Shown here: positions 2,919 through 44,005 of the stretch, piece after piece | Numbering within the stretch: position 1 is the stretch's first letter | Layout of the letters: every line of letters begins with the position of its first letter | DNA from: Hirudinaria manillensis | Lineage: Eukaryota; Annelida; Clitellata; Hirudinida; Hirudinidae | Length of the DNA stretch: 64,000 nt | Reading direction: 5' to 3' | Assembly (NCBI GenBank): GCA_034509925.1 | Contig: CM067536.1 | Span: forward strand, 3,686,001 to 3,750,000 | The notes under the pieces: model-generated | Database searches by the model: none | What the model was told of the DNA's origin: nothing | Seen by the model: the letters and a program-made list of their open reading frames with translations, nothing else | Made by a program: the position numbers and the translations under genes

Positions 2919-3282
2919 CGGTTGCGCGTGAAGAGGTCGCTAGGAGAGAAGCAGACGGGGCCGAGTTTCAAATCTCTGTGCGAGGACCACTGCCAGTGTG
3001 CTCAACAAAACTCGTCGTTTCAACTGAGACGTCGTCAACAGAAAGGTCAGCACGATTCCTTATCCAGTCGATCCCTGGTCCTTACGGAACTCCAGTCGTC
3101 CGTTCAGTGTAAGAGCGGAGTCAGCAAAGTCATGGACGGATGCGGTTGCTGTTTGGTTTGTGCCAGACAGCAAGGGGACTCGTGCGACAAGATTCATCCC
3201 TGCGATGCTCTCAAACAACTCTTCTGCGACACCATCGTCTCCTCTCAAAACGGCCTCATCATTGAATCTGGAATCTGCAAGC
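2919..3282 (+). CDS. CCN-like gene A, IGFBP-domain exon
   Basis: This exon encodes the IGF-binding-protein-like module of a CCN matricellular protein, a secreted multi-domain modulator of growth factors and integrins. The 121 residues contain exactly 12 cysteines in the family order, with the hallmark DGCGCC followed by VCA, and C-x3-C-x-C near the start. About 36 residues rich in Gln, Ser and Arg separate CQC from the next cysteine, longer than usual. The acceptor is TTGGCAG just before 2919 and the donor is C|GTGAG at 3282. Entry phase is 0 and exit phase is 1, which fits the next exon. The N-terminal RLRVKRS suggests a signal-peptide exon upstream. Every base matches the exon at 35915-36278. 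Confidence 0.9.
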
Positions 3283-3693
3283 GTGAGATTTCTTTTTCGG
3301 TCGATTAAAACTTGCATTTCAAAATCGTTTTCAGCCAGTTACACAAGTCTTGTCTAGAAATAATTTGAAATGTTTTTTTAATTTATTTTTATATTAAAAT
3401 AAAGTGGAAAAAGTTTAAAAAGATATCCGCCAAAAAATAAATATAAAATAAAAAAATAAAATAAAAACTTCAAAGGCCTCCAAACGTCTCTCTCGAGATT
3501 TGAAGGAATTTTAAAATATTAAAAGGAACGCATTTAAGAAGTGATAAAATGAATCTTTTATGCGAGTCACTTTGTTGCTCGAATGGAAAATAATTTTTCA
3601 TTTTAATATGTTTAAGTCCCGTGTGCTCTTAGCGTATCAAGCCGAGCTTATGTAAAGCAATGAATGTTTTAATGCCATCAACAGAAATAATTA

Positions 3694-3986
3694 ATTATAT
3701 TATATTATATTATATTATATTATATTATATTATATTATATTATATTATATTATATTATATTATATTATATTATATTATATTATATTATATTATATTATAT
3801 TATATTATATTATATTATATTATATTATATTATATTATATTATATTATATTATATTATATTATATTATATTATATTATATTATATTATATTATATTATAT
3901 TATATTATATTATATTATATTATATTATATTATATTATATTATATTATATTATATTATATTATATTATATTATATTATATTATATT
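3694..3986. repeat. (ATTAT)n microsatellite, about 58 uninterrupted copies
   Basis: About 290 bases of pure five-base repeat with no interruption that I can see. The 120-residue Tyr/Ile/Leu frame across it is an artefact. Confidence 0.95.
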
Positions 3987-4140
3987 CAACCGAATAATTA
4001 CAATTTTAATCCTTTCATGTAACACAACATGTTTGGTGATATAAGAAACAACGCGCGGCAAAATTTTCAGACGACATTTCACTTGTTCGTTGTGAAGCAA
4101 TTTGTCACGGTGCTTGAATAACATTGCTTGAAGAAGATGT

Positions 4141-4258
4141 TCTGATTGATTTCACTCTTGTTCATTTCTGATTGATTTCAATCCTGTTCATTTCTGATTG
4201 ATTTCACTCATGTTCATTTCTGATTGATTTCAATCCTGTTCATCTCTGATTGATTTCA
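4141..4258. repeat. 26-bp minisatellite, 4.5 copies, two alternating variants
   Basis: The unit begins TCTGATTGATTTCA. Full units alternate between a CACTC form and a CAATC form in the order A-B-A-B, so the effective period is 52 bases. The last unit is cut short. Confidence 0.9.
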
Positions 4259-5532: not shown

Positions 5533-5762
5533 CCAAGTCTGGAGAGCCGTGTTTGATCGACGGTAAAAAGTACGAGGATGGTTTGCAATTTCAACTGAAC
5601 TGCAGTCTCTCGTGTAGTTGTCAGAACGGTCAGTACGCATGCGCCTCGCTCTGTCCTCAGGAGGAGAGACCGCCATCTAGCGAACATTGCGGACAGGCCA
5701 AGCTGCTCTCCATCGCTGGCAGATGCTGCAGGGAGTGGGTCTGTCCACACCCCCCTCAGCAC
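5533..5762 (+). CDS. CCN-like gene A, VWC-domain exon
   Basis: This exon encodes the von Willebrand factor type C module, the CCN segment associated with binding BMP/TGF-beta-type ligands. About 77 residues hold the 10 expected cysteines, ending in RCCREWVC. The acceptor is ATTTTCAG and the donor is CAC|GTGAGA. Entry is phase 1: CC joins the C left by the IGFBP exon to give Pro. Exit is phase 0. The sequence is identical by eye to 37752-37981 over all 230 bases, and about nine bases of the following intron also match. Confidence 0.9.
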
Positions 5763-6778
5763 GTGAGAGGCCCTCATGTTTATTCATTGAAGGCTTTGAC
5801 ACTTGCAAATATAATTCAGGCTAATGAGACTTTTCCTCTCTCCTAGAATTTCCCAAGTCTGGAATAATTGCGTGTTCGCAGAATATTCGACGATTTTCAA
5901 AAAATTATTTCCATTTTCGACGATGTTTTTGTTTTGTTTTGTTGTTTTTATCGTAAAATAAAATTAGTTTTATTAAACAAAATAGTTCTGAGCACAAAAA
6001 CGCAGCAAAACATTAAAAAAATAACTATTTCTACTGGGTTTCCCTCTTCCAGGAATACTCGTGGAATTTCTGGAAAATTCTGAATTTTCACTTTTTAATT
6101 TTCTTTCTTTCGCATTTTAAATTTCTAATGTTTTTCTTTAAAATACCGAAAATAAGGAGATTTCTAAAAGAATTATTTATTATTTTTAAGAAACATCTTA
6201 AAGGATTCACAAAAAAAAACATGTTGCGAGGTCTGCTTTTGATGACCTCACGACTACCTCTTAACTGTTTAACTTTCCTTTTATTAATTATTATTATATT
6301 TATTTTAATTAATATTAATTGTAATATTAATTAAATGATTAATTAATTCTATTAATATCAATTTCTAAGATAATAACTTAAATAATTATTAATAATTTAT
6401 TAATTTAATAGCACTTTATTCTGCATGTTATCCAATTTGTAATCCAATGAATACTTAACAGGTTCGAGTCAGTCGTAAATATTAACAAACTACTAAGTAA
6501 TGCATGATGATAATGCATCCTTTTTATCTCAGAACTTGCGTCCCTAAAGCAGTTAATGGGACTATTAACGTCTTCAAAACCCACCTCTCGCAATGCCACG
6601 GGGTACCTTGGCGACGAAGAGCTACCTAAATGACCGACAGAAACCCACCTGCGGCCCTACATTGATTAATTCTGATTAATAAGAACTTTATCTTTATTAA
6701 GATTTTTGATTAATTGTAATTAATAATTTATTAATTTATATTATAATGTGGTTAAAAAATATTATTTGTTGAGACCAG
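5763..6778 (+). other. Intron of CCN-like gene A (phase 0)
   Basis: AT-rich intron between the VWC and linker exons. A GC-richer patch at about 6530-6660 stands out, but I found no splice-bounded open frame in it. Confidence 0.75.
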
Positions 6779-9516: not shown

Positions 9517-9707
9517 ATGTCAGTAGAAGAGAGCGCTGCATAAAGGACGTCTCCCAGTGGAGTTCGTGTTCGGCCACTTGTGGAACCGGTTGGTCCATCC
9601 ACATGACCAACGACAATGAAAACTGCAAGACGGTCGTCGAACGCAAGATGTGCTACATGAGACCGTGTCCGCCCGATGAAGCACAAATCAACCCCAATGC
9701 ATCACTG
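9517..9707 (+). CDS. CCN-like gene A, TSP1-domain exon
   Basis: This exon encodes the thrombospondin type 1 module, which in CCN proteins contacts cell-surface and matrix partners. It contains six cysteines and the signature WSSCSATCGTG, then TNDNENC, close to the family's TNDNxxC. The acceptor is CGTCAG. The first two bases AT join the G from the linker exon to give Asp. The exon exits in phase 0 at CTG|GTCTGA. From 9525 onward it differs from gene B at one base (Pro CCC against CCA); the first eight bases hold four further differences. Confidence 0.9.
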
Positions 9708-10244: not shown

Positions 10245-10550
10245 GCGTGGAGCCAATGTCTGGAAGGAGCTGCAATGGTGACTCTGGTCATAGAAGGATG
10301 CGAAAGCAGGTCCGAAGTCAATACGACTTTCTGCGGCAGTTGTTACCTCCCTTCACCGAAGTTGAACGCCAATCCTCACCTGGTCGACACCACTTTCGAG
10401 ACCTTTCCACCGGTCACGAAACGCTGCTGCAAACCCGGCCAAACGAGGACTTTGGAAGTTCCCATGGTTTGTGACAACGGCACGGCTATCGACATGAAGT
10501 TCAGACAAATTAGAACTTGCAGGTGCAAGGAGGATTTCTGCGGAGCTTAA
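10245..10550 (+). CDS. CCN-like gene A, C-terminal cystine-knot exon and stop
   Basis: This exon encodes the CT (cystine-knot) module that closes CCN proteins and supports dimerisation and integrin or proteoglycan contact. The 101 residues hold ten cysteines, including the CC pair in RCCKPGQTRT and a C-x-C near the end, and finish with TAA. About 27 residues are inserted between FCGSC and the CC pair. Together the five exons give 393 residues with 12+10+6+10 = 38 cysteines, exactly the family count. Which vertebrate CCN it matches cannot be decided from this. It is much diverged from gene B apart from an identical 23-base island at 10428-10450. Confidence 0.88.
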   Translation, partial: AWSQCLEGAAMVTLVIEGCESRSEVNTTFCGSCYLPSPKLNANPHLVDTTFETFPPVTKRCCKPGQTRTLEVPMVCDNGTAIDMKFRQIRTCRCKEDFCGA

Positions 10551-16290: not shown

Positions 16291-16293
16291 TTT

Positions 16294-16723
16294 GGATGGA
16301 TGGATGGATGGATGGATGGATGGATGGATGGATGGATGGATGGATGGATGGATGGATGGATGGATGGATGGATGGATGGATGGATGGATGGATGGATGGA
16401 TGGATGGATGGATGGATGGATGGATGGATGGATGGATGGATGGATGGATGGATGGATGATGGATGGATGGATGGATGGATGGATGGATGGATGGATGGAT
16501 GGATGGATGGATGGATGGATGGATGGATGGATGGATGGATGGATGGATGGATGGATGGATGGATGGATGGATGGATGGATGGATGGATGGATGGATGGAT
16601 GGATGGATGGATGGATGGATGGATGGATGGATGGATGGATGGATGGATGGATGGATGGATGGATGGATGGATGGATGGATGGATGGATGGATGGATGGAT
16701 GGATGGATGGATGGATGGATGGA
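16294..16723. repeat. (GGAT)n microsatellite, about 430 bp, one phase slip
   Basis: About 107 copies of GGAT, perfect except for a single ATGATGG slip near 16457. All six frames can stay open across it, giving artefact proteins of MDGW or HPSI repeats. Confidence 0.97.
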
Positions 16724-18625: not shown

Positions 18626-18740
18626 ATTTATTTCGAAACCACATAAAAAGCTAAAAATAAAAACAATAATAAAATCAGATATTAAGTCTTGTATGGACAA
18701 TGAAGACATTTTCAACTGCTGAATATTGTTGCACTATAAT

Positions 18741-19098
<358 letters not shown>

Positions 19099-19203
19099 AA
19101 TTAATTTATAATAATTTATCGGTAGCAAATAAATACGCAATAATTTGTTAAAGTCAACTCGTTGCATCTTTTTTTTTGTTTCAAGATCGAAAGTCCTCAT
19201 TTT

Positions 19204-24722: not shown

Positions 24723-24728
24723 TTTATT
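24723..24728 (-). terminator. Polyadenylation signal of the duplicated gene, copy 1
   Basis: AATAAA on the minus strand, 15 bases after the stop codon and followed by an A-rich stretch. The same arrangement occurs in copy 2. Confidence 0.5.
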
Positions 24729-24743
24729 CCTGAAAAATACTAA

Positions 24744-25559: not shown

Positions 25560-26435
25560 AATACATTTTAATTGCTAAAACACAATAAATCGAATTAAAT
25601 CGTTTAATAATTGACTTAATAAGTTCGTTGAACTTTGTCACGTCAACACGCCCAAGGAAACACAAAACAAAAAAACTATTTTCATCGACTTTTTAATAAA
25701 ATATAATTTTTTTTTTTTGTAAAATCGTGAAAAATCGACTCTGATTTGTCCTCGGAGAAGGTTAAAATCAGAAAAAATGTTCAACTTTCAATTTGTTTTT
25801 CAAAACATTTGAAATTTTTCCTTGGCGTTCATTCATTAATTTATGGACTTTCGAATGTTCCGCCATCTTTTTTTTCTTTTTCTTTTGAGGTAGTTTTGAG
25901 AATACAAATTAATTTTAAAGTCTCGCGGTATCACCTGCATTATCAGATCATCAAACAGGTTATGAATATGTTTTCATGATAAATTTAGTTTCTAGGATTG
26001 TTATCATATATTAGTATATCAACCTATTAGAAGCTATTATGTTAATTAGAAATTAATTTATATTATTTTAGGTGTGATATATTTATAAGGTTGGTAATAT
26101 TTGGTATTATTTTTTATTATAATTTATTATATTTAATAATAGTTGGTATTATAAATTATTATGTATAGTTCTAGGTGCGGTATATTATAAATTGCAATAT
26201 TTTAATGAGGTGTGGCACATTATAAATAAATTATAAAAAAGATTTGTGATGTATTGTGAATTTTTTTTTTCCTTTATTAGCCCAGCCACAAACTCACAAA
26301 AAGCAATCAATTCATACAATTCATAATCCGATTCAATAATTTTAGGTCCGCCAATGGGTCTGGGAAATCCCGTCAGACCATTCAAAACAAGAGAACATTC
26401 AATTCGATCTTACGAGTCATTGTACATTCACAAAT
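25560..26435. other. AT-rich stretch between duplicated block and R2 element
   Basis: No gene seen. Copy 2 lacks this segment: there the duplicated block joins the R2 sequence directly at about 33462. Confidence 0.6.
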
Positions 26436-26440
26436 GTCCT

Positions 26441-27088
26441 TCAATTCAACTTCTTTTTTCTTCTTCTCCAGGCGTTATTTTTAAAAGTTCGCCAAATCTT
26501 ATGGGTCTCCTGCATTGTTTTTATGGAGGTCCACATGAGGAACCTCCTCGAGACCCCAAATCTTCTCCAAACCCTCCAAGACTCTTCTGCTATTGCTCCT
26601 CTCCAGTTCAAGACCAGGGCGGTGATGGTACCTTTCTGACTCCGTTGATCTGGCATAGGATTATTTTTCTTCATCCATTGGTGGATTCCCGGAAGGTCAT
26701 ACTTTGCGACTTTTGAAGCATGTATTTTATTCAAGTCGGCAATATCCGATGCCACTGCCACGTCACACACGACGTATGTGGATCCTTTCCATGCGCACAA
26801 ATCAGGAATTTTTGTTCCTTCTATCGTCGGGATTCTGGGTTCGATGCTGGTAGTAAACCCCATCTTCTCAAGTTTGCTTCCTAAAATGGCCAAAATGGAA
26901 TTGTGTCTAACATGTCTAGGACCATGGTTAACATGGCACCGCTGTATAATATGGGCCAGCCACTCCTCAGTACGACATCCAACAGTGCAGAGAGTGCTCA
27001 AATACATCTTGTATCTCGATTCCCGCAATCTGTTGTGTAGGACCGCGGCTCTAACCTTCACGCAGTTGATCCATTGATCTGATGTCAT
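26441..27088 (-). pseudogene. R2-type zinc knuckle and restriction-like endonuclease (copy A)
   Basis: About 215 residues. A CCHC knuckle (C34, C38, H46, C51) is followed by an endonuclease core with IPDLC at 94-98 (D96), VVCDVAV with D109, and K126 and K129. This is the PD-(D/E)xK-like nuclease that nicks the target in R2-type elements. Copy B has the same domain at 33359-33967. The last 40 or so residues are present only here. Confidence 0.85.
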
Positions 27089-27158
27089 TCTGCAAATTCC
27101 ATCGATTAGCCATTCGCTTGGACCAATGGCGCTTGAAAATGATTGCAGTCCATATCCG

Positions 27159-27584
27159 TCAACTGTTTTGTACAGTTGTTAGGCCCATTGTTCTGATGCC
27201 CATTGTTTTGGCGTCTGTACAATTCTGTGGGAGACCAAACTTGCTGACTTCTCCCATCACTGTCGTTCCGCCTCCAAGGACGTCCAGCATGAATTGGTCT
27301 CTATTCGCCTTGGCTTCTTTTAAGACCTGTGACATGCGACGAATTCTTATATTTGGAATCCATTTCCGAAATTGAAGGATTCCGAGACCTCCTAGTCGGA
27401 CTGGGACATACAGGAATGCATTGGGGACGTCCTTCGGCAATTTCAACCAATGTCGAACTGTTCGTCTAATGGTGACGTCTGCGGCATTCAAAGACTTGAG
27501 GCTTATTTTTTCGAAGCTGAGATGGTGTACAAGCCCAGGCATGAGATGAGTTCTGAGAATGTAGAGTCGCTGATGTGGTTCCAA
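27159..27584 (-). pseudogene. R2-type element, thumb/linker segment in shifted frame (copy A)
   Basis: This continues the polyprotein in another frame after the deletion. Copy B reads the same residues (HQRLYILRTHLM onward) in one frame with its reverse-transcriptase part. A TAG appears at 27159-27161, just after the second frameshift. Confidence 0.8.
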
Positions 27585-28873
27585 AGGGAGTGTAGGTCTT
27601 TTTGAATTTTTTCTGCTATTGATGCATATTTTAATCGTGCCCCAATCTCAATACCAAGATATTTGTAGGTTTCAATGATATTTACCGCCGTGATTTTCGT
27701 GTGTTGCACTTCAAGATATGGTTCCGGATTAACAATCCACGATATTTTTGCGATGTGTATCTCGGTGCGGAGAGATGCGCACTTGAGTGGATTCATCGCT
27801 AATCCCACCTTAGACATTCCTCCTTCAAGTTGTTGAAGTAACATCTGCATTCCAACGTCTGTTGTAGACATCAGCAAGAGGTCGTCAGCAAAGGCAACGT
27901 AGTTGCATTTTATTTTGGACTCAGCGTCTCCTGTTACGCCGATTGACTTGTCCACTTCGCTAAGGACCATGTCAATAACGGCATTGAAAAGCCTAGGAGA
28001 CATTGGATCTCCTTGCTTGACGCCTCTGCCCACTTGAATGCGATTACTAATTCCGTCTGCAGTCTTGATTTGAACCCAGCTATTTCTGTACAGTTCTGTC
28101 AAGTAATTGATAAACAATGGAGGCGCCCCGAGTCGAGAAGCAGCTCTCATGATTGATAAATGAGAAACTGAATCAAACGCTTTGGATACGTCTACGAAAG
28201 TCAAATTTAACTTTTTCAGTTCCTGCTTCTTTTTCTTGATGAGTGACTTCACCAACCATATATTATCGGCCAAACCATCTCCTTGACGAAACGTTTTTTG
28301 GCGCGGAGACAACGGCAAGAAGGAGATCATCCGTCTGTTGAGGATCCTATGAAAGAGTCGACCAATGATTGGGCTCACTGTGATGGGTCTGAACTCGCTT
28401 GGGTTGGTGGCTCCACTTATTTTTGGAATGCATGTGACGATCCCAATTTTGAATGAAGACGGAGGCAGACCAGTTAACAGCCACAGTGACATGTGAACTG
28501 CAAAGTCAATATTCTTGATCCCTTCTATGTGCTCTTTCTTTAATTTGTCGTGTCCTGGCGCAGCATCTCGGAGACCTCTAATAGCAGAATTCACCTCATC
28601 GCTGGTGACTGGCAATTCTAAATCATATAGAGTTCCGCCAACAACTGTCACTGGTCTATCGTATTCAACTGACTTTTTTGAGAAGACCTGCTCCCAATAA
28701 TCGATCAGTTCATTTCCTGGAGTTGCCTTTGACTTTTCTTTGAATTCCTCTGCCAACACTGCCCGTGCCCCTGCTGCTGGATTTTTCCTGAGCAAATCTT
28801 GTATTACTTTCCTTTGTCTTTCAATGGTTCTCAGTTCTTTTTTGCTGAGTCTAGTCTTTGCTTTCACGAACAT
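27503..28873 (-). pseudogene. R2-type reverse transcriptase, N-terminal and catalytic part (copy A)
   Basis: 456 codons begin at ATG 28873. Reverse-transcriptase motifs appear in order: APGHD near residue 105, FRPITV near 161-166, TFVDVSKAFD at 225-234, GRGVKQGDPMSP at 282-293 and YVAFADD at 325-331. The three catalytic aspartates are D228, D330 and D331. The palm looks intact, but the frame is lost near 27581 just after the thumb begins. Members of this family carry zinc-finger and Myb-like domains before this point, and these are missing. Confidence 0.85.
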
Positions 28874-28906: not shown

Positions 28907-29931
28907 TTTTTTTTTTGTTTTATTTCGCGCTGACAAATTTTGAAGCATAATAATCGTCGAGAGTCGTCATCATCACCGCTGCCATTATCATCATCGTCGT
29001 CGTCATCATCATCATCATTCGATTGCAAGAGATTTAAATGAGTAAAAGCATGGTTCATATAGGAAGTTGACGATGATACCGAACCAATTTTAAATTTTAA
29101 TAGATTTGAATGATTTTTCGAAGAATTCTTCAAAATTAATTTGAATAAAATTGGAAACAAAAACATCTTATTCCATTTACCATTTAATTACGTTCACAAT
29201 TTAATTTAATTTATAATAATAAACTAATTGATTGATTGGTTGGTTGGCTATGCCGACCAATAGGCCCCTCGATGCGGTTCCTCTTACGGCCCATCTCCGG
29301 TTCAAATCCGTACCGCCACTTAAAACTAAATGCACTTATTTAAATTATTTTTATATAACTCAATTAGAAATCCTACTTTAAAAGTATTTGAAATTAAATC
29401 TGAAAAAATAAATCATTTACAGAATTTTATTAAATTTGAAACAACTTCATTCGTTATCTTTGGTCCAATTTTTGGCCAAAAGGTCAAGTAATAAAACCGC
29501 CAGCCATACTTTCTTAACTCACTCGCAAATACAATTCGGGAGCTCAACACAACTTATCCACATTAGCTGGCAATTAGATATTTTTGCGACCCTGGATCCA
29601 GATAATTAATGAATAATTAAAATGATATTGCGAATTAATTAATTTTATTTTATAATATTAAATAATTAATTTAATTAATTTAATTTAATTAAAAATAATA
29701 ATTAAATAATAATTTTTTAATTAATTAATATTCCGGGTACTATTTAGAGTCTTTTGTTGTGAAACTCGACAAATAATTTAATGTAGAAAAGCAGAGCGAG
29801 AGTGAGAGATATTAGACTTCAAGACTTAGGCAATTAGGCACTGCAAATCTTCCAGGACATCTTTAGATCAATTACGCTAACTGAACACTTTCAAAAAACC
29901 CTCCACAATTAGTTTGACAGGTTATCACATC
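28907..29931. other. Non-coding stretch between R2 copy A and the 400-residue gene
   Basis: Contains a GAT/CAT triplet tract near 28965-29020, the tRNA-like segment at 29225-29325 and AT-rich DNA. No gene was recognised. Confidence 0.6.
29225..29325 (+). mobile_element. tRNA-derived SINE-like segment (possible)
   Basis: GGTTCAAATCC at 29301-29311 is an excellent polymerase III B box. It sits in a locally GC-rich block of about 90 bases (starting GGTTGGCTATGCCGACC) within AT-rich DNA. No complete cloverleaf could be drawn, so a SINE head or tRNA pseudogene is more likely than a working tRNA. Confidence 0.35.
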
Positions 29932-31134
29932 ATGAATTCAAAGTTTGAAATCTCTACGGCACTTGATAAAATCGTAAAATCGAGCGATCCTTTGGAAGAA
30001 TTTGAAAAGAACGTTGGAAATAACTCTCTGAAAGAATGGCTGGAAAACGGATACGGAGAGGTTATTTCTGGTTTCATTGCATCTCCGGAGTGCAAAAGTG
30101 ATATGTTCGATAGGTGCCTGAATATCATCGATGCAATCATACCACCAGTTCCAAAGTTCATGGACGGCAGGGTTCATAAAAATATTTTCAACGTTTCGTC
30201 CTGTATGGACGATTTAGAGACACTCGAGTATTTAACATCCTTAATTATATATCCTATTTTAGAGAGGATTTCAGACGACCCCATATCGATAAAAGAAATT
30301 TACTCCGATGTCCTTCTGAAAATCGTTTATTATGCCAATAAACTGACCATAAATGACTGCCGCATAACATCGAAGTTGATCGATGTTATAGACTCGAATT
30401 TAAAGTTAAAGCTCTTTAATTCAATTCTTACGGCCTTGGCATTACTATCCATTTTGTTCGAGAAAGTACCATCGTTTCAAATGTCCCTGACGCCAGACAT
30501 CTATCTCAAAGTGAAAGCGATATTTACAATATTTGAAGGGAACGAATGCTTTCATGTGGATTGTATACGAAAAATCTTTTATTGTTTTGGACTCGATGAG
30601 ACGTTTCATAGAGAATTTCCATTGTTTAAAGCAATGCAGGACGTTGACTTCAAAGGACAATGTCTCGTCACGTCTTTGAGTCTTGCATTGAGAATAATAA
30701 GTGACAGTAACTTTGATGTCATCCAATTCACTTTTAGTGGTCTTCTGCAGAAATTTCATTCACTTTTGTGCAAACCTTCTGAGTTTGGTGACCAGTCGTT
30801 CGTAATCAAGTCTTTTCTCAGATTGTTTGTAGTCAAAGATGGCATTGAAAACAGTTACACGAGAAACGGAGACTTGTTTAACGAATTTAGAGGGATGATT
30901 TATAGAGCTAAATATGAAATTTACTTCTTCTTACAAATTTGGAACGATGATGAAGTTGAAAGTTATCCTTATTCAGTTATTTATGAACGCATTGAAAGTT
31001 ATACAACTTTATATATAGATCTAATGAACGTCTTGCGAGAACTGAACGGCACTTGGTACAAATGGTTTGACACTGCAGAAGAGTCTAACTTAATTGAAGA
31101 TGATTACTTCTCGCGTAACTCTTTTTTGCTTTGA
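29932..31134 (+). CDS. Intronless gene, unrecognised 400-residue protein
   Basis: A single open frame of 400 residues runs from ATG 29932 (MNSKFEISTALDKIVKSSDP) to TGA 31134, in DNA where chance frames are short. No signal peptide or membrane span stands out. The sequence is rich in Leu, Ile, Phe and acidic residues in spaced amphipathic stretches, suggesting an all-helical, armadillo/HEAT-like fold, but I recognise no family. A good AATAAA follows about 30 bases past the stop. The open frame extends 18 bases upstream of this ATG, but without another ATG. It lies inside the large intron of the minus-strand 71-residue gene, on the opposite strand. Lack of introns among intron-rich neighbours could mean a retrogene. 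Confidence 0.75.
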   Translation: MNSKFEISTALDKIVKSSDPLEEFEKNVGNNSLKEWLENGYGEVISGFIASPECKSDMFDRCLNIIDAIIPPVPKFMDGRVHKNIFNVSSCMDDLETLEYLTSLIIYPILERISDDPISIKEIYSDVLLKIVYYANKLTINDCRITSKLIDVIDSNLKLKLFNSILTALALLSILFEKVPSFQMSLTPDIYLKVKAIFTIFEGNECFHVDCIRKIFYCFGLDETFHREFPLFKAMQDVDFKGQCLVTSLSLALRIISDSNFDVIQFTFSGLLQKFHSLLCKPSEFGDQSFVIKSFLRLFVVKDGIENSYTRNGDLFNEFRGMIYRAKYEIYFFLQIWNDDEVESYPYSVIYERIESYTTLYIDLMNVLRELNGTWYKWFDTAEESNLIEDDYFSRNSFLL

Positions 31135-31169: not shown

Positions 31170-31544
31170 TTTTGAAATCGTTTTTCCTAAGCTTCAGCTG
31201 GCTATTTTTCCACTTTGTTCTGATCATCATTGCATATCTAGTGAAGTCACCAAGTCTGAGTTATTATAAACATATTCTTAAAATGTTTGTATATTATTTT
31301 CGCATTGCCCTCTGAACTCATATAACTTATCAGCTTAAATATTTTAAATTTAATAAATAATGATTTAAATTACAATGGATTAATTGTTAAATTAATAATA
31401 CAATTGTTAAATATCAATAATAATCACAAATATGTTTAACAACATGAATTGTTTGCAATTACTTTCTAATCTTTCTCAGCTCTGGAATCAATTGGAATGA
31501 TTGGTATCATAAATTATCATCACTGGAGATCCAGCAATTCTTAC

Positions 31545-31632
31545 CTGTAACGCATACCTGTAGTACATCCATATTAAGGACATCGTAAACCTGTCTTTAC
31601 AGCTCCTTCGTTTAAATTTCTTCAACCAATTC
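31545..31632 (-). CDS. 71-residue duplicated gene, copy 1, exon 2
   Basis: Minus strand: acceptor AACTAATTTTAG precedes 31632 and donor CAG|GTAAGA follows 31545. Entered in phase 2, its 88 bases read NWLKKFKRRSCKDRFTMSL and on to ALQ without a stop, leaving in phase 0. The N-terminal part is basic and the rest aromatic and hydrophobic. The matching exon in copy 2 (35509-35422) is identical by eye. I do not recognise the protein. Confidence 0.5.
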
Positions 31633-31885
31633 CTAAAATTAGTTTATTTCCGTTAAAATTCGCATAAAATTCAGTTAATTCAAAAGTTAATGTTTGCTCC
31701 ACAAAATGTTGCTCGTTGGTTAACTTTGAATAATTCACTGCATGGTCAAAAATCGTATTTTTTATATTTTTAGGTACACATTGATATTTGATGTTGTCAC
31801 CTTCATGAATTTCATAAAACTTTTAATCGATTTTTCACTTAATTAACATTAAATTATTATTTAATTATCACTTTTCATAACTTAC

Positions 31886-31902
31886 TTGCTCTGCTCTGCC
31901 AT
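31886..31902 (-). CDS. 71-residue duplicated gene, copy 1, exon 1
   Basis: Minus strand: ATG at 31902 encodes MAEQS and two bases of the next codon, then the perfect donor GTAAGT. Exit phase 2 matches exon 2. Copy 2 has the same exon with one change (Lys to Glu at the splice-spanning codon). The duplicated unit ends about 45 bases upstream of this ATG. Confidence 0.5.
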
Positions 31903-32456
31903 GTCTACCGTGCATTGTTGATAAATTGTATTTGAAATGTCATCAAATTATTTTCCAAATCAATTCAATTATTTCATGATTTATGAAACAATTTCGTTTA
32001 AAATCTTTTTTTTCTTTCCACATCTTTTATTAGATTTTCACCTGAAAATGTTGACAAAGCGTCTCCAAGCCCACCTTCATTTTAGCTTTAATTTCCATCT
32101 TAATTTTTCCCATTTAAAGACAAATTCGCAAAAAAGACAGGTTTTAAATTACAATGAAATTACAAATAGTAATGAAGCAGCGTTTAAGATTTCAAAACTT
32201 AAATCAACTTTTCACTTTTTTAATCGAAATAATTTTAAATAATCGCATTTAATTATTAAATCATTAAAATATTTATAATATATTTATACAAATAAAACAT
32301 ATAATATAGAATTTATTTTAAATATCAAACATATTTATTTAAAACTTACAACATAAAATTCATTTAAATATACAACACATTACACTATTTAAAATATATA
32401 ACTCATTTATTTTAAATATATTTGTTCAATTTTTTTTTATTCCTGAAAAATACTAA

Positions 32457-32567
32457 TTAATCCCGACATGCCAAGAGGCAATGTAAACCTTGGTTTACGA
32501 CGGACAAGCCAATCATATTGATGTCCAAGTGCATCACACGGGCACCTCTCCTGACGATTTCAAGCAC
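32457..32567 (-). CDS. 71-residue duplicated gene, copy 2, exon 3 and stop
   Basis: Same length (111 bases), phase, acceptor and stop as copy 1. Amino-acid changes are few and conservative, and AATAAA again follows the stop (plus-strand TTTATT at 32436-32441). Keeping the frame after duplication argues for a protein-coding exon, although the duplication may be too young for this to be strong evidence. Confidence 0.5.
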   Translation of the reverse strand: MLEIVRRGARVMHLDINMIGLSVVNQGLHCLLACRD

Positions 32568-33358
32568 CTGAGAACATAAACATGGCCTTTATTTTTATAA
32601 AAACATTTTTAAGAAGATTATTCCAACGATTTATTCCGGGGTTGTACTGATAAATTAACCGATTTGAGTACTGGACGGTGTACATCTGCCATACAATGAA
32701 GTACTCGTTTTTCTAATAAATCATTGAAATTCATGTTAATTCATGAAAATTTTAAATAATTTTAATTCCAAATTATTTTTCAATGGAGAATTTTAAATTT
32801 TTATTTCAAAATCATCAACCAAATGACTGAATGATGGTGACTATGATGATGATGACGTCGATGAAGACGACGTTTATGACGCTGATGACGATGATGATGA
32901 CGTTGATGACTATTAGGTTAAAGACCCCTTCAACAAACACAGGAAATGGGTTAGAAAATGCAAACAATGTTAGTCATAATTTCAAAATATAAGATATAAA
33001 TTTGTAATAATAGAATTAAATACAAATATCAATACCAATTTAAGTTAGGATCAATTTAAGTGCTCAAATGACTTTGTAATACTTTAACAAATTAGTCCAA
33101 TTTGGTAGAATTCCATGAAGCAAAATAAATATTCCAAGAATTATTTTAAATATCAATAAATATTTAAATATATAATTAAACAATAATAACTCTTGCTTTA
33201 AGTAGAATAAATATAATTTTCTTTCATAAAATATTTATCAGTTTTCACGGACGAGTGTTAAGATACAGATTAAACTGGTATCAAATTTTACCAAAGATAT
33301 CAAAGTCATCTTTCTTCGAAATAATAATAAAATTCTTTTAAATGTTATAAAAAAAAAT

Positions 33359-33967
33359 TTAAACTTTCTGCCAATAATAATAAAATTCTTTTAATTTTAA
33401 ATTATTCACGTCAACCATTTGGAACCTAATAAAGAATTTTTTAAATTTCAATAAACAAGACTCTTCTGCTAATGCTCCTCTCCAGTTCAAGACCAGGGCG
33501 GTGATGGTACCTTTCTGACTCCGTTGTTCTGGCATCGGATTATTTTCCTTCATCCATTGGTGGATTCCCGGAAGGTCATACTTTGCGACTTTTGAAGCAT
33601 GTATTTTGTTCAAGTCGGCAATATCCGATGCCACTGCCACGTCACACACGACGTATGTGGAGCCTTTCCATGCGCACAAATCAGGAATTTTTGTTCCTTC
33701 TATCGTCGGGATTCTGTGTTCGATGCTGGTAGTAAACCCCATCTTCTCAAGTTTGCTTCCTAACATGGCCAAAATGGAGTTGTGTCTAACATGTCTAGGA
33801 CCATCGGTAACATGGCACCGCTGTATGATATGGCCCAGCGACTCCTCAGTCCGGCATCCAGCTGTGCAGAGAGTGCTCAAATACATCTTGTACCTCGATT
33901 CCCGCAATCTGTTGTGCAGGACCGCGGCTCTAACCTTCACGCAGTTGATCCATTGATCTGATGTCAT
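33359..33967 (-). pseudogene. R2-type zinc knuckle and endonuclease (copy B), with read-through into unrelated sequence
   Basis: It contains the same CCHC knuckle and IPDLC...CDVAV nuclease core as copy A. After WRGALAEES at about 33463 the reading enters the duplicated AT-rich block, so the last 28 residues are not part of the element. Confidence 0.75.
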
Positions 33968-34810
33968 TCAGCTAATTCCATCGATTAGCCATTCGCTTGG
34001 ACCAATGGCGTTTGAAAATGACTGGAGTCCATATCCGTCAACTGTTTTGTACAGTTGTTTGGCCGTTCTGATGCCCAATGTTTTGGCGTCTGTACAATTC
34101 TGTGGGAGACCAAACTTGCTGACTTCTCCCATCACTGTCGTTCCGCCTCCAAGGACGTCCAGCATGAATTGGTCTCTATTCGCTTTGGCTTCTTTTAAGA
34201 CCTGAGACATGAGACGAATTCTTATATTTGGAATCCATTTCCGAAATTGAAGGATTCCGAGACCTCCTAGTCGGCCTGGGGCATACAGGAATGCATTGGG
34301 GACGTCCTCAGGCAATTTCAACCAATGTCGAACTGTTCGTCTAATGGTGACGTCTGCGGCATTCAAAGACTTGAGGCTTATTTTTTCGAAGCTGAGGTGG
34401 TGTAAAAGGCTAGGCATGAGATGAGTTCTGAGAATGTAGAGCCGCTGATGTAGTTCCAAAGGGGCGCGCGAAATGGAGTGTAGGTCTTTTTGAATTTTTT
34501 CAGCTATTGATGCATATTTTAATCGTGCCCCAATCTCAATACCAAGATATTTGTAGGTTTCAATGACATTTAGTGCAGTGATTTTCGTGTGTTGCACTTC
34601 AGGGTATGGTTCCGGATTAACAATCCACGATCTTTTTGCGATGTTTATCTCGGTGCGGAGAGATTCGCACTTGAGTGGATTCATTGCTAATCCAACCTTT
34701 GACATTCTTCCTTCAAGTTCTTGAAGCAACATCTGCATTCCAACGTCTGTTGTAGACATCAGCAAGAGGTCGTCAGCAAAGGCAACGTAGTTGCATTTTA
34801 TTTTGGACAT
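33463..34810 (-). mobile_element. R2-type retrotransposon fragment (copy B)
   Basis: This copy spans the last reverse-transcriptase motif (FADDLLL) to within the endonuclease. It is cut at both ends compared with copy A: at 34810 by the CR1-like element and at 33463 by direct joining to the duplicated block. It keeps the 13 bases that copy A lost near the thumb, and it has a TGA at 33968-33970 just before the zinc knuckle where copy A reads Cys-Arg. The two copies are therefore independently damaged versions of one element. Confidence 0.85.
33968..34810 (-). pseudogene. R2-type reverse transcriptase, C-terminal part (copy B)
   Basis: About 280 codons in one frame from the FADD motif through the thumb to DGIS, ending at TGA 33968. 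The matching codon in copy A is not a stop, so this is probably a nonsense mutation and not a natural end. Confidence 0.8.
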
Positions 34811-35298
34811 CCTTATCTGCTGAGACTAAAGATTCTTAAATTGCCCACCCTAGAAAAACGAAGACTACTGGCCGATCTCACCATGTGTTTTAAATTACTA
34901 AAAGGCCTTACTAATAGCAAAATCTCCACTACTCTCAACAGATCAACATACAATAGGACCAGAGGCCACAACTACAAACTCAGGACAAACAAATTCCGTT
35001 GTAATACTTCCAAATACTTTTTCTCCAATCGAATTGTCAAATCCTGGAATACCCTGCCAGCCCATGTCGTTAACTCCTCTACCACGTCCCGCTTCAATGC
35101 TGAGATCCACAAATTGAACCTTAACCAATACCTTAAATATCATGAACCCTAAGAGCTTACATCTGTACAAGAGTTTTTTTTTGTTTTTTAAGTCCGAATG
35201 GCGATTGTTTATGTTCTATTTGCGCTTCAGTTGTTTTTTTTTTTCGAACGTGTCAGAGGCCTCGGCCCTTCGTTCGTCTCGAATAAATGAAATGAAAT
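34811..35298 (+). mobile_element. CR1-like non-LTR retrotransposon, heavily 5'-truncated
   Basis: On the + strand, about 113 codons encode the end of a CR1/Jockey-type polymerase frame: LLADLTMCFKLLKG, then TRGHNYKLRTNKF, then YFFSNRIVKSWNTLP. A stop at 35150-35152 is followed by a short 3' UTR and the tail GAATAAATGAAATGAAAT (35281-35298). Short repeated 3' tails and strong 5' truncation are typical of this clade. It is inserted at the boundary between the R2 fragment and the right block of unit 2. Confidence 0.8.
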
Positions 35299-35421
35299 AA
35301 TCACAAATATGTTTAACAACATGAATTGTTTGCAATTACTTTCTAATCTTTCTCAGCTCTGGAATCAATTGGAATGATTGGTATCATAAATTTTCATCAC
35401 TGGAGATCCAGCAATTCTTAC

Positions 35422-35509
35422 CTGTAACGCATACCTGTAGTACATCCATATTAAGGACATCGTAAACCTGTCTTTACAGCTCCTTCGTTTAAATTTCTTC
35501 AACCAATTC
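35422..35509 (-). CDS. 71-residue duplicated gene, copy 2, exon 2
   Basis: Identical by eye to copy 1 exon 2, with the same splice sites and phases (2 in, 0 out). It is separated from exon 3 by the CR1-like and R2 fragments, so copy 2 would have an intron of about 2.9 kb. Confidence 0.5.
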
Positions 35510-35762
35510 CTAAAATTAGTTTATTTCCGTTAAAAATCACATAAAATTCAGTTAATTCAAAAGTTAATGTTTGCCTCAAAAAATGTTGCCCGTTGGTTAA
35601 CTTTGAATAATTCACTGCATGGTCAAAAAGCGTAGTTTTTAGATTTTTAGGTACACATTGATATTTGATGTTGTCACCTTCATGAATTTCATAAAACGTT
35701 TAATCGATTTTTCACTTAATTAACATTAAATTATTATTTAATTATCACTTTTCATAACTTAC

Positions 35763-35779
35763 TCGCTCTGCTCTGCCAT
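35763..35779 (-). CDS. 71-residue duplicated gene, copy 2, exon 1
   Basis: ATG at 35779 followed by MAEQS and the donor GTAAGT, exit phase 2. It lies only about 135 bases from the IGFBP exon of CCN-like gene B, on the opposite strand. Confidence 0.5.
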
Positions 35780-35914
35780 ATCTGCCGTGCATTGTAGATA
35801 AATTGTATTTGAAATGTCATCAAATTCTCTAGAGAAGAAGTTTGCAGAAATTTGATAAGAAATTCAAATCTTTTCAATTCTATTACACATCATCAAAAAC
35901 CAATTTGTTGGCAG

Positions 35915-36278
35915 CGGTTGCGCGTGAAGAGGTCGCTAGGAGAGAAGCAGACGGGGCCGAGTTTCAAATCTCTGTGCGAGGACCACTGCCAGTGTGCTCA
36001 ACAAAACTCGTCGTTTCAACTGAGACGTCGTCAACAGAAAGGTCAGCACGATTCCTTATCCAGTCGATCCCTGGTCCTTACGGAACTCCAGTCGTCCGTT
36101 CAGTGTAAGAGCGGAGTCAGCAAAGTCATGGACGGATGCGGTTGCTGTTTGGTTTGTGCCAGACAGCAAGGGGACTCGTGCGACAAGATTCATCCCTGCG
36201 ATGCTCTCAAACAACTCTTCTGCGACACCATCGTCTCCTCTCAAAACGGCCTCATCATTGAATCTGGAATCTGCAAGC
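35915..36278 (+). CDS. CCN-like gene B, IGFBP-domain exon
   Basis: Same 12-cysteine IGFBP module as gene A, 121 residues plus one base. I see no base difference across all 364 bases, including synonymous positions. The identity extends 19 bases into the upstream intron (to AAAACCAATTTG) and only five into the downstream one. The acceptor is TTGGCAG and the donor C|GTGAG. It has no signal peptide of its own; the exon at 20065 is a candidate first exon. Confidence 0.9.
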
Positions 36279-37751
36279 GTGAGCGCAAATTCAGTCGTAA
36301 AGTTTGACCTCTAAACTTTAGGTTCTCCTTTTATTTAAACTTTTCACGTCTTGCTTCGGGTGCTTTTATTCAATTGGTCTCGCGAGAGCACAATTTCAAT
36401 TAATAAGCCTTCGAATGGTTCTGTTGATTGGGGCCTTTATTGCTCCTGCTGTTGCATGGCGAAACCGAAGTGCTCGGTCAGTGCAAGGACTAACATCCAC
36501 TTCTCCTTTTTATGGACCTCCCAGGGGTCTTTTGAACCTAAACCTTCGTTGGAGGTCTTCAAAATTTCCTCCCTGGGAATCACTAAACCGATTTATGAAA
36601 GTCTAAGAAGCGCTTAAAATTTTCTGAAGCCGTTTTTATAAAAAGATTACAAAAAAAATAGAAAAATTGCGAAGAAAGCGAAACAAGAACATCCAAGACG
36701 TTAAGAGCGATCCAATCTGTACCTAGAAACAATAATCTATTTGGAATTACATCTTGCCTTTTTTTTTAATCTTAATTAATCCGAAGCAAAATGCAATTCC
36801 TCGTTTATTTAAATAAATACGTCGAAATGATTGGAACGATCTCCATTCGAGATTATAAATTACTTGATGGATGCCAATCAATCAACCCGCTCTGGACTTT
36901 CTCATAAGGACCATTAGATTAATTAAATTGTCTTTTGGCACCAATAGATCAAGAAATCAAAGCAAAGCGGTCATAAAAACCTAGCGAAACTGCTTCTCCA
37001 TTGCTGTGTCTTCTTTAGACTTCACTCCAAACTGTCACTTAAAGCAACCCGCATTCAGCTCCTGTGCCAAGTGGAAGTCAATTTATAGCAGTTGAACCTC
37101 CCTGAACACATTACATGGACTCACGCTTCCTGTTGACAGTTTCAGAACGAAAGTCATTTGAAAAGACCTTTCGCTTGGCAACTGAAAGACGTTATTGATG
37201 ACCAAAACTGCTTTATTACACGAAAACAAATAAATAAATAATAACAAATAATATTCATTTAACAAGTTTATTTTGGAGAAAATGTATTTACTACAATTAA
37301 AAGTAAATATATTTAATGCGATTAAATGTGTTATTTTAAACAAAAGGGGAATAAAAATAAAAACCGTGTGCGTGGTTTTATTGCCTCGGAGATAATAAGA
37401 CATCATTTCACTGTTTATCGGAGATTCTTTGCTCCTTATCGGGTCCTTTGACATAATTGAGGGAAAAGTATATTAGGATTTTCTCGTCGTAAATCAGTTT
37501 TAATTAGTAATCTTTTTTATTTATTAGACTGCAACCGTATTTACAGCTGTAATTATACTATGATTTTATTCCTTTTCTTTAATTTTTTTTTAAATTGAGA
37601 ATAATATGTAAAACAATAAATAATTGAATAATTGAAATAACCAGCTAGTTATTTCATGGAAAGTTATTTGTCAATAGAATTCTAATTCTTGAATGTTGTT
37701 GATTATAAAAGATTTTAAAAATAAATAAATAAAAAATTCCAACATTTTCAG
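36279..37751 (+). other. Intron of CCN-like gene B (IGFBP to VWC)
   Basis: About 1.5 kb with no repeat array and no similarity to the matching 2.25-kb intron of gene A. Short open frames occur, without domain or splice support. Confidence 0.8.
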
Positions 37752-37981
37752 CCAAGTCTGGAGAGCCGTGTTTGATCGACGGTAAAAAGTACGAGGATGG
37801 TTTGCAATTTCAACTGAACTGCAGTCTCTCGTGTAGTTGTCAGAACGGTCAGTACGCATGCGCCTCGCTCTGTCCTCAGGAGGAGAGACCGCCATCTAGC
37901 GAACATTGCGGACAGGCCAAGCTGCTCTCCATCGCTGGCAGATGCTGCAGGGAGTGGGTCTGTCCACACCCCCCTCAGCAC
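37752..37981 (+). CDS. CCN-like gene B, VWC-domain exon
   Basis: All 230 bases equal those of gene A by eye. They carry the same ten cysteines and the same phases (1 in, 0 out). After the donor, nine bases match exactly and about nineteen match with two differences before the introns diverge. Confidence 0.9.
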
Positions 37982-38340
37982 GTGAGAGGCTGTCATGTTT
38001 TCAATCCATAAACATTTCTCGTCAGGCAACCTAGAAATTAGATTACAAGCCGCGATAGGATATATATACGGTGTCTTCAGAGCGTTCATTTCCAGAGGAC
38101 AAACTCTTATATCTGTCAATTAGGATAAATGGATAGAATAAATAAACGTTTGCGTTTCTTACGTCCGGCGTCAAATTTCTAACGAATCCTTGAGACAACT
38201 GTTGGCAAAAGTAATGAAAAGTAAACTAATCTCAAGAGCGTCTTCAAAACAAATTAATTATTATAATAATAATTAACATTAAATTTATTATTATTATAAT
38301 TTATTACAATAATTGTAATAGCTGTAATTATGACTTGATG

Positions 38341-38735
<395 letters not shown>

Positions 38736-39666: not shown

Positions 39667-39715
39667 TATCATCATCGTCGTCGTCGTCGTCATCGTCATC
39701 ATCATCATCATCAAC
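39667..39715. repeat. CGT/CAT triplet microsatellite
   Basis: Short run of CGT then CAT triplets. Confidence 0.85.
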
Positions 39716-40219: not shown

Positions 40220-40271
40220 TCCTTTGAGCAACTGAAATTCTCTTCCGATGAAGAGGAAGGCCTGCCAGACT
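40220..40271 (+). CDS. Weak candidate linker exon of CCN-like gene B
   Basis: A good acceptor (GGCATTTTTTATAG) is followed by an acidic 18-residue frame without cysteine, similar in character to the linker of gene A. The only donor (TAT|GTTTTT) leaves phase 0, whereas phase 1 is needed, so it cannot join the TSP1 exon directly. Confidence 0.15.
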
Positions 40272-41214
40272 ATGTTTTTTTCCATTGTTTTTCTATATGA
40301 TTCTCGTCAGATTTTTTGTTGTTGTTTTTATTGTTGTTTTTCAGTTTCGACATCGAAATGTTGAATCAACAATGTTGAAAGTTGCTGACGTTTTGTATTT
40401 GATTCCAGATCGACCTTGGACTTTATTCAGGACATTTCCTCTCCGAGCATTCGTCACAGGAGACAGGTTTGGAAATATTTGCTCAGCTCTTGATTGAGAA
40501 CTTGCATAAGCAGATCTTAGTTGAACGTTTTTGCTTGGGATTTTAATGTAATTTAGTTTTAATGCAATTTAATTTTAATGTTATTTCGAAGTTGTAATTC
40601 GAATGACCAAAAAGTAAAAAGAATATTAACAAAAGCAAATTAATAACATTAATAATAAGAAAATCAAGAAGAAAACTCTGGTAATGATGACGATGATGAT
40701 GATGAATGAGAATATATGAAAATAAAGGGAAATAATTTTAAACATAATTTTTAAAACTTAATTTATAACTTCAGGCATTCAATTTATTTATAAAAATAAG
40801 AGAAAACCTTGTTCAAAATTGGAACGAAATTATTTCTTTGCATTAAAAATACTTGCCTCTTAATTTCTCTTAATTTTAATTAATCACTAAAAACAAATTT
40901 ATTGATTGATAAAATATTATTAAGTTTAATTTCCTTCCAAATATCTGATCAAAATTCTTGATCAAAGGGTTAAAAGTGAAATACACTTACGTATAAACGA
41001 CTTCGATAAGAATGACTCTACGTTCATTCAGGACTTGAACGTATCTCAACCATTCAGACGTCCAGGGGAGTTCAACGCGTGCACAAGAATCAAAATGCTT
41101 TCAAAGTTCTAACCCTTGAATATGAGAAGCTGCATTATTCAGTTTATTTGGTTCCATCGTAAAGATGGCATCAAACCTAACCACGTTGTCAGTTTTCAAT
41201 TATCTTATCGTCAG

Positions 41215-41510
41215 TGTATCATCATTATCATCGTCGCCATCACCATCATCACGATGTCATCAGTACATGCAAATGTATCGCTGTAGCGTCACACATGTGT
41301 CATTACCATGTCACCATCGTTATCATCATCAACAACAACAACATCATCATCATCATTACATCCAAAATGTATCGCTATGGCATCACATATATAGCATTAA
41401 CATGTCATCATCGTTATCATCATCATTGTTATGCCACCATTACATCACAAATGTATTGGTATTAGACCAGTATCACTATCATGTCAACAACATCATCATC
41501 AGTAGCACAC
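41215..41510. repeat. Degenerate long-unit repeat rich in CAT
   Basis: Blocks starting AAATGTATCGCT and containing CATGTCACCATCGTTATCAT recur at spacings of roughly 100-120 bases, with decay. The two long frames across it reflect the repeat. Confidence 0.65.
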
Positions 41511-43814
41511 CAACGTCAAAAATAATGTAATATTATCACATTGTAAGTAAACAATCGCTTGAAACAAGTCCTTCTGTCTCATTAAACTGATTTCACGTAA
41601 TTTTCAACGTAATTTTAAATACTTTGTAAATAAATAAATAACTTTAGACCCGCCTAAATATGTATAATTGAAGCGCCACTTCCGGCAACTTTAGCTGACG
41701 ACCTAGGAATAAAAACGAGAGTCCTAAACACACGCAGAGGAGTTCCATTGAGATTGACTTGGGAGTTTTCATGAATTTGATTGATTCCTGCCATCCATCT
41801 CGGCCGTTGTTGCTATTACTTTGTTTATGCAAATGTTTTTCTTTGTTTATTTTAAAGTTTTTTTTTAACATTTTTCGAGTTTATTCGACAAATGAAGTTT
41901 AAAATCAACGCTCGAAATCGATAACGAAACAACTTCGTTCCAATTTTGAATTCATTTCACGTTCCAAGTCTCACGTGATCAAAGAGAAGAATTTTCGAGA
42001 CAATTTATATTTATATAAATAAAAACTAAAATCACCGAGAATACGTGGATCTAATTCTGTCTGCTTTGTTTACGAAGTGTTTAGAAAGCCTAAACAAGTC
42101 AAAGTTATATTAACGAGGCTAATATTCGGAATACAAAAGCAGGACACTCAAAGACCTATTCAATGATTCTCCCTCATAAAATGACTCCCACATTCTGATC
42201 TATCTCTCCATCAATGAACCAAACATGGCGGCCATAAGGAAGCCATCTTGATTTACACCCCGTCTCGCATTCTTTGAGTAAATCTGAAATAAATATTCGA
42301 ATTAATCATTATAAACAAAAGGCATTGAAAATATTGAATGTCGCAACAACTGTTGTTTTTGATACGTTTCAGTAAGTTGTGTGATAGGTTAACGGTTCAA
42401 TATAACATCAATAGATTTAATAATCTATTTAAAACATTAAAAAATAAATTTTGATTTAGACTCAAATCTTAAAAAAGAAATTTAAAAGTGAACTGAAAAT
42501 TAAATGTTAAAAATATTCCAAATTAAATTCCAAAAATAAATCCGAAATGTCTTGAAAACCACTCGGTCGTGTATTGTTCAATCAGAGAGGTTGGATCAGG
42601 GTTTTGTTCGAATAACCAACGATTTTTCTGAAGCATTTATTTCGGTGATTTATTGAAATATTTATTTTATTTATTTACTGAAATATTTATTTTATTTGTT
42701 TACTAATATATTGCTATTAAACTGATAAATTGTTTTGTATATTTAAAATTAAATCCCAACATCAGATAGTTTCTCATTCTGCCAAAGGATTGGCTTCAAG
42801 TTATATTTAAACAAGTTAACATTTTCAATTTATTTATTATTCTATTTTTTTTTAAATATTTTGTAATATTTCTAACAAAATACTTGGAAAATCGAAACAA
42901 AAAAGATGCACCGATGATGAACGTTAATCCAATATTTCCACTCATTTATCATCGTGTGACCACGTGATATTTTCAGGAGATCTCCATAAAACTTCTGTCA
43001 AGAGGATGCTTTTTAAATAAAAAAAAAGAATATAACTTTATATTCATTTTAGAAAACCATGCAAAGATAATACGGTATAATATAATATAATAATAATAAT
43101 AAAAATAAAAATAATATACAATATACATTTAAATCACTTTGGTGGTAATTAAAAATAGAATCACTTTCCATTTGAGTATGGAAACATCATTCGTAGGACG
43201 TCCACCGTCCGTTGAATATTTTCTAAATTTAATTTCGTTCCAACAAAAATAAATCGAATTTCAACCGCAACAATTTCAAAGGTTCCGTCGTAAAAACTTC
43301 CGAAAAATCACTCGAAAAGCAGTAATAAAAGCGAAAATGCGAGGAGCAAACCGAGGATGATGCTTCGCACGGCTACATGGACCATTACCTCCACAATATG
43401 CGCCAAAATTACTCGATCCTGGCGCCAGATATTGGATGTGTGATTTGTAGACCCTGCACAGGGTCACGGGCCTCCATCGTACCCCCATCTCCCTAATGTA
43501 CACCCTCCAACATAACGGCTCATCACACGATAGCAATAAACCCCCGACATGTGCCTTTTTAAGGAAGAGTAAGCAGGGGCTTTCCTTCTCGCAGATTTCT
43601 GGGGTGGAAATATTTTATTTTTAAAAATCCAATTTAATAAGATTAAGTAAGACTGCCAACGAGTCGTTTAAAAATCATTTTACCGGGTCAAAACTTTGAC
43701 AATTATGATTTATTTTATTATTATTATTAGAATACATCTAATAATTTAACCAAATATTATTTAATTTTGTCGATTTAAACGTTCAAATCGCTACAATTAA
43801 ACTTTTCTCGCCAG

Positions 43815-44005
43815 ACGTGAACAGAAGAGAGCGCTGCATAAAGGACGTCTCCCAGTGGAGTTCGTGTTCGGCCACTTGTGGAACCGGTTGGTCCATCCAC
43901 ATGACCAACGACAATGAAAACTGCAAGACGGTCGTCGAACGCAAGATGTGCTACATGAGACCGTGTCCGCCCGATGAAGCACAAATCAACCCAAATGCAT
44001 CACTG
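43815..44005 (+). CDS. CCN-like gene B, TSP1-domain exon
   Basis: Six cysteines and WSSCSATCGTG, as in gene A. The first eight bases (ACGTGAAC) differ at four positions from gene A; the remaining 183 differ at one synonymous base. Entry is phase 1 after CTCGCCAG and exit is phase 0 at CTG|GTCAGA. Protein change: DVN against DVS before RRERC. Confidence 0.9.

Follow-up and report, generated by a model that had tools for sequence, protein, structure and literature searches.

Near-identical module exons amid diverged introns in three CCN-type genes of the leech Hirudinaria manillensis, a pattern pointing to recurrent interlocus gene conversion

In ruminant lysozyme genes, the exons reportedly converge and the introns do not, as told in the primary papers on this family. 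Several further systems resemble the genes analyzed below. The mammalian pairs BMP8A/B, DDX19A/B and TUBG1/2 combine exons homogenised by conversion with others that diverge, their members lying less than 1 Mb apart and BMP8A/B being inverted (PMC2720389), mammalian lysozyme c shows concerted evolution in the ruminant and rodent Lyz genes (PMC3141428), and in the chimaeric BEX/WEX/GASP genes concerted evolution affects a single exon irrespective of the exons beside it (PMC1274310). In the spider MaSp2 silk genes, coding sequence is homogenised, paralogue introns diverge rapidly and intergenic conversion has been inferred (PMC9779670). It is mainly between coding sequences that conversion is to be expected, introns and intergenic regions being the least conserved (PMC1274310), and the opposite pattern, similar introns with diverging coding sequence, has been described for opsins (PMC3514295). 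Here, we analyzed a window of 64,000 nucleotides from the leech Hirudinaria manillensis (C11:3686001-3750000; contig CM067536.1 of assembly GCA_034509925.1), whose + strand carries two CCN-type genes in tandem, hereafter A and B. These two genes and a third copy, C, on the same contig carry three nearly identical exons, together with diverged introns and a diverged exon encoding the CT module. Judged from the DNA, it is highly probable that recurrent DNA-level interlocus gene conversion among A, B and C, with each exon acting as an isolated homology island, would account for this arrangement.

All three loci reside on a single 9.6-Mb contig of the 148.4-Mb assembly, which comprises 23 contigs. 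Whole-genome searches with each of the A exons identified, among the best candidates scored and at E up to 0.001, three places per query, corresponding to loci A, B and C, and the genome matches of the A CT protein at E up to 0.001 were likewise confined to these loci. Locus C is found on the minus strand (C11:3898577-3914141) with its exons ordered as in A and B; the starts of exon 1 are spaced by ~33 kb between A and B, ~192 kb between B and C, and ~225 kb between A and C. A preliminary description of the window had claimed two paralogues: the A/B pair stands, and the third, inverted locus with the same exons had been missed.

Exon 1, which encodes the IGFBP module and the basic stretch preceding it (A, 2919..3282, + strand; B, 35915..36278, + strand; C, C11:3913778-3914141, minus strand), is identical in all three loci (0/364 base differences for A/B). 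Exon 2, encoding a VWC-like module (A, 5533..5762, + strand; B, 37752..37981, + strand; C, C11:3900240-3900469, minus strand), is identical in A and B (0/230) and carries in C one silent difference from both. Exon 3, encoding the TSP1_CCN module (A, 9517..9707, + strand; B, 43815..44005, + strand; C, C11:3899192-3899382, minus strand, where the search match covers 3899192-3899380 and the first two bases were assigned from the splice site), differs at 5 of 191 bases between A and B, at 4 between A and C and at 5 between B and C. Base-by-base comparison of the A/B exon pairs, for which the coordinates given earlier proved exact, yielded five differences in 785 bases, four of them within the first eight bases of exon 3 (positions 2, 5, 7 and 8) and the remaining one at position 179; in a self-comparison of the window, pairs 1, 2 and 3 were recovered with E values of 0, 3e-128 and 1e-94, respectively.

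With regard to gene identity, the module order IGFBP, VWC, TSP1_CCN and cystine-knot CT typical of CCN was recovered in a Pfam scan that took in the four A exons and the B CT exon, locus C not being scanned separately. IGFBP (PF00219, 41.4 bits), TSP1_CCN (PF19035, 55.1 bits) and Cys_knot (PF00007, 30.5 bits in A and 30.1 bits in B) exceeded their cut-offs, and VWC (PF00093, 26.5 bits) remained slightly below its cut-off of 27.6. The genome contains at least 21 PF19035 matches, of which 6 are single places (loci A, B and C, and one each on C12, C7 and C2) and 15 belong to a triplicated TSP1-repeat gene.

Outside the shared exons, alignment between the loci is confined to AT-rich repeats and to exon edges. 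The introns of A, B and C measure 2250, 1473 and 13308 bp (intron 1), 3754, 5833 and 857 bp (intron 2), and 537, 263 and 321 bp (intron 3), respectively. The 13.3-kb intron 1 of C has a GC content of 43%, compared to 28% in A and 33% in B, and contains by eye reverse-transcriptase-like open reading frames (ORFs) and a putative gag-pol-like open frame of 1653 codons on the strand of the gene. A 269-bp A/C match in intron 1, pairing an ATTAT array in A with a similar stretch in C, was set aside, and six A/B matches in intron 2 with 58-69% identity and E values as low as 3e-12 were taken for low complexity, since they lie in AT-rich sequence and several of them align a single stretch of A to more than one place in B, chiefly at or near the TAT array of B.

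The exon edges themselves are more informative once all three loci are compared. An earlier figure of 5-19 shared bases at the splice sites is roughly right for A/B, where exact identity outside the exons reaches 19, 8 and 3 bp upstream of exons 1, 2 and 3, and 5, 9 and 3 bp downstream of them, respectively; B/C share, however, ~100 bp at one edge and A/C 62 bp at another. Upstream of A exon 1 (2857..2918, + strand), 56/62 bases are common to A and C, which corresponds to 6 mismatches as compared to 30 for A/B and 31 for B/C, with B matching both other loci exactly in the last 19 bases and little beyond. Upstream of B exon 2 (37637..37751, + strand), B and C resemble each other over ~100 bases (113 against 98 bases in the anchored alignment, and 71/86 in the best core without gaps), and A matches either of them exactly over 8 bases, its anchored scores of 7.5 and 8.5 being slightly above the respective shuffle maxima of 5.5 and 6.0. 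Downstream of A exon 2 (5763..5781, + strand), 17/19 bases are common to B (37982-38000), and C matches A and B at 9/19 bases each. Downstream of exon 3, A and C have 18/21 bases in common, and A/B and B/C 14/21 each. In total, 10/18 edge comparisons scored above all 60 shuffles.

The closest partner therefore switches from edge to edge, being A/C before exon 1, B/C before exon 2 and A/B after exon 2. Such switching suggests that one event does not explain the pattern and that several events involving all three pairs took place, the simplest account being that every pair has undergone one exchange or more.

These edges also bear on the alternative that survives best, albeit as an improbable one, in which complementary DNA (cDNA) reverse-transcribed from spliced mRNA overwrote the exons of a paralogue and spared its introns. 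Present identity mostly stops close to the exon borders, as would be expected from such a template, and ORFs encoding reverse transcriptase are present between A and B (Pfam RVT_1), in addition to the reverse-transcriptase-like ones seen by eye in C intron 1. However, common intron edges of 19 to ~100 bp are impossible to derive from spliced RNA, and the CT exon, the 3'-most exon found, is diverged, although cDNA would be expected to homogenise this end of the gene most. Moreover, the genome searches with the A exons, among the best candidates scored at E up to 0.001, revealed no intronless copy. Tracts devoid of intron bases and a 3' bias, both of which characterise cDNA-mediated conversion, were thus not observed, and the preference for DNA-level exchange already voiced in the preliminary description is strengthened by the intron sequence held in common and by the divergence of the CT exon.

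The CT exons (A, 10245..10550, + strand; B, 44269..44589, + strand; both including the stop codon; C, C11:3898577-3898870, minus strand) encode the cystine-knot module, with a His/Gln-rich stretch in B. As had been noted, they have diverged: 51/101 aligned residues are identical between A and B, 48/92 between A and C, and 52/97 between B and C, and at the nucleotide level identity amounts to 57.8% (175/303 bases), 60.1% and 62.2%, respectively. According to the Nei-Gojobori method, the proportion of synonymous differences (pS) reaches 0.79-0.87, which is beyond correction, and the non-synonymous divergence (dN) is 0.32-0.42. Among codons with identical amino acids (Met and Trp left out), synonymous variants were counted at 22/48 (A/B), 25/44 (A/C) and 29/49 (B/C) codons in the CT exons as compared to 2/252, 4/253 and 4/252 in the shared exons (Fisher p of 5e-18, 2e-20 and 4e-23, respectively). 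Within exons 1 and 2, 0/42 four-fold sites differ for A/B and 1/42 for each of the two remaining pairs, and exon 1 contributes no such difference. Taken together, silent sites are almost unchanged in the shared exons and near-saturated in the CT exons, and the introns are unalignable except for repeats and edges.

One feature within the CT exons departs from this divergence, namely a 23-bp run identical in A (10428..10450, + strand) and B (44467-44489), a length reached by 25/5000 codon shuffles; the identical runs of the two remaining pairs are unremarkable among the three pairs examined. This run is possibly the trace of an old short conversion.

Selection alone, acting on the protein or on the nucleotide sequence (e.g. 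on exonic splicing signals) without any exchange, is very unlikely to have produced this contrast. Although the modules are recognisable conserved domains, as this explanation would have it, four-fold sites differ at 2/59 positions in every pair over all shared exons and at 10/15 (A/B), 12/16 (A/C) and 9/14 (B/C) positions in the CT exons of the very same genes, in agreement with the earlier argument that silent sites match too and that protein-level selection is inadequate; the partner-switching intron bases are not predicted by selection either. About equally unlikely is an assembly or polishing artefact by which the sequence of one exon was copied into the others, since the loci lie on a single contig with unrelated introns, and the pair-specific diverged edges, together with the few exon differences, are unlike overwriting.

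As controls from the same assembly, the three copies of the TSP1-repeat gene are 98.5-99.7% identical in their main aligned blocks across 9-kb stretches (exons and introns not being separated), so that the CCN trio looks unlike a recent duplicate of this genome; the second innexin exon of the window matched itself and six other places at 68-81% identity over 70-198 of its 723 bases. Two of the TSP1-repeat copies are located on C1, mutually inverted, and one on the 180-kb contig C15, and a TAA occurs inside three of the TSP1 repeat matches, one per gene copy. A scenario of recent segmental duplication, once or twice, in which the introns and the CT exon were subsequently replaced, can hardly be credited: recent segmental duplicates are indeed present in the assembly, but these are alike over whole 9-kb stretches, intron replacement would be required in every copy, and the CT exons are homologous to one another, with silent sites close to saturation.

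Recurrent interlocus gene conversion, in contrast, is in keeping with two features observed here, a homogeneity at silent sites far above that of the rest of the gene, and mosaic borders with pair-specific tracts. The repeated conversion of exon islands proposed in the preliminary description accordingly remains best supported, and locus C adds evidence of its own, as the partner sharing most intron changes by edge; furthermore, with C being inverted, simple unequal crossing-over within a tandem array is excluded for this locus. Three old CCN-type paralogues would be kept identical in three exons by recurring conversion, whereby a break in one copy may be repaired from a paralogue via homologous strand invasion. 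With enough uninterrupted homology presumably left in the exons only, tracts would begin and end inside an exon or immediately beyond it, which would make every exon a self-maintaining island. The CT exon would have fallen below the required homology long ago and would now drift under protein-level constraint; its initial divergence may reflect selection for different partners, or the homology threshold may have been lost there first.

Under conversion of isolated islands, exchange would be predicted to fall off with the shortness of the island and towards its edges. Eight exon positions vary among the loci, one in exon 2 and seven in exon 3, and they do cluster towards the ends of the exons (P = 3e-5; mean distance, scaled, 0.117). 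Differences also rise as the island shortens, from 0 (364 bp) over 0-1 (230 bp) to 4-5 (191 bp), which, with three islands, amounts to a trend. In a published survey, the minimal efficient processing segment in yeast is given as ~200 bp, most tract estimates range from 50 to several hundred bp, and SBDS is listed as a human case of gene conversion at 305 kb (PMC3924818); the island sizes and distances found here fit these values. In addition, the flank of exon 1 differs between A and C at 6/72 bases, compared to 0/~80 silent sites in the exon (Poisson P of 0.0013), and the flank before exon 2 differs between B and C at 15/86 bases, compared to 1/~47 silent sites (P of 0.003). As the flanks are more diverged than the silent sites of the adjoining exon, these results suggest that the exons were converted again after longer tracts.

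Several observations weigh against recurrent conversion or loosen the case for it. Both Poisson tests presuppose that flanking bases and silent sites evolve in the same way. Eight of the 18 edge comparisons failed to beat all 60 shuffles, namely four downstream edges with GTGAG alone in common, three edges before exon 3, and the A/B edge after exon 3 (reached by 1/60), and the common edges could in part be ancestral intron remnants lost at unequal rates. The GC content at third codon positions (GC3) is no higher in the shared exons (0.62-0.65) than in the CT exons (0.60-0.71), leaving no signature of GC-biased conversion; the study on mammalian pairs names an elevated GC content as characteristic for regions undergoing conversion (PMC2720389), and our result counts against a strong GC-biased process, without excluding conversion. 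Finally, no complete gene was recovered, which leaves the integrity of these genes partly in doubt. With exon 2 ending in phase 0 and exon 3 requiring one base from upstream, the reading phase demands a linker exon between VWC and TSP1, and two scans of intron 2 in loci A, B and C gave no convincing, mutually similar candidate, so that the earlier claim of an unshared linker exon found no confirmation; likewise, exon 1 lacks a Met codon ahead of the Pfam IGFBP match and an upstream exon is therefore needed, and such a 5' exon (signal peptide) did not turn up, no search having been aimed at it.

More tentatively, and with somewhat more doubt than confidence on our part, A, B and C may form a single exon pool in which islands of 191-364 bp were converted repeatedly until introns and CT silent sites had become saturated, with a design of constant body and variable CT kept by conversion and intron barriers, and with ectopic conversion being effective near or below 200 bp. 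On the main reading of recurrent conversion, the outcome would already be three proteins that have their IGFBP-VWC-TSP1 body in common and each carry a CT end of their own, and if these ends differ in function, conversion can hold one part of a protein constant while another diversifies. With three lengths, three loci and two orientations, the trio offers a clean natural case for gauging the shortest homology island that still converts ectopically, in which the flanks date older tracts and the CT exon serves as a largely unconverted clock inside the same genes. A tree built from the shared exons would wrongly make A, B and C very recent duplicates.

Around the two loci of the window, repeat copies with reverse-transcriptase sequence occupy 24232-27920 and 31945-34808 and are 87-97% identical in pieces. 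Two direct repeats of 531 bp, 97% identical (31419-31949 and 35296-35826), bracket a stretch with reverse-transcriptase sequence a short way upstream of B exon 1, and the second repeat stops 88 bp before this exon. Near-perfect long arrays of 3-5 bp units (TGGA, ATTT, TAT and ATTAT) are found at 16293-16723, 18739-19109, 38341-38710 and 3690-3986, respectively. An open frame of 417 amino acids at 29881-31131 (+ strand) gave no Pfam match at E 0.01, and an innexin gene at 46838-48184 (+ strand), of a kind that points to an invertebrate, comprises two exons or more, two of which match Pfam Innexin. Elsewhere in the assembly, a COX1 match at C9:3026446-3027786 scores equal to that on C23, possibly the mitochondrial contig, and the C9 match may represent a recent transfer of mitochondrial DNA to the nucleus. 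The COX1 frame stays open with genetic codes 4, 5, 9, 13 and 14, in all of which TGA encodes Trp.

Compared with the described systems, the leech genes stand apart in several respects. The mammalian BMP8A/B, DDX19A/B and TUBG1/2 genes come in two copies and not three, and their GC3 is significantly raised in two of the three pairs (PMC2720389). Lysozyme c belongs to a different family, which expanded by tandem duplication (PMC3141428), whereas it is the last coding exon that escaped in the CCN trio. In the BEX/WEX/GASP genes, the converted part lies in the 5' untranslated region and the coding parts diverge (PMC1274310), and the MaSp2 genes are repetitive, are homogenised mainly within the gene and, as presented there, are without single-copy module exons (PMC9779670). 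A search of the open-access literature for gene conversion among CCN paralogues yielded no paper, and CCN genes appear in none of the titles retrieved by the wider literature searches. Mosaic concerted evolution as such is already known; what stands out here is the unusually sharp contrast between shared and diverged parts, along with the participation of a third, inverted and distant copy.

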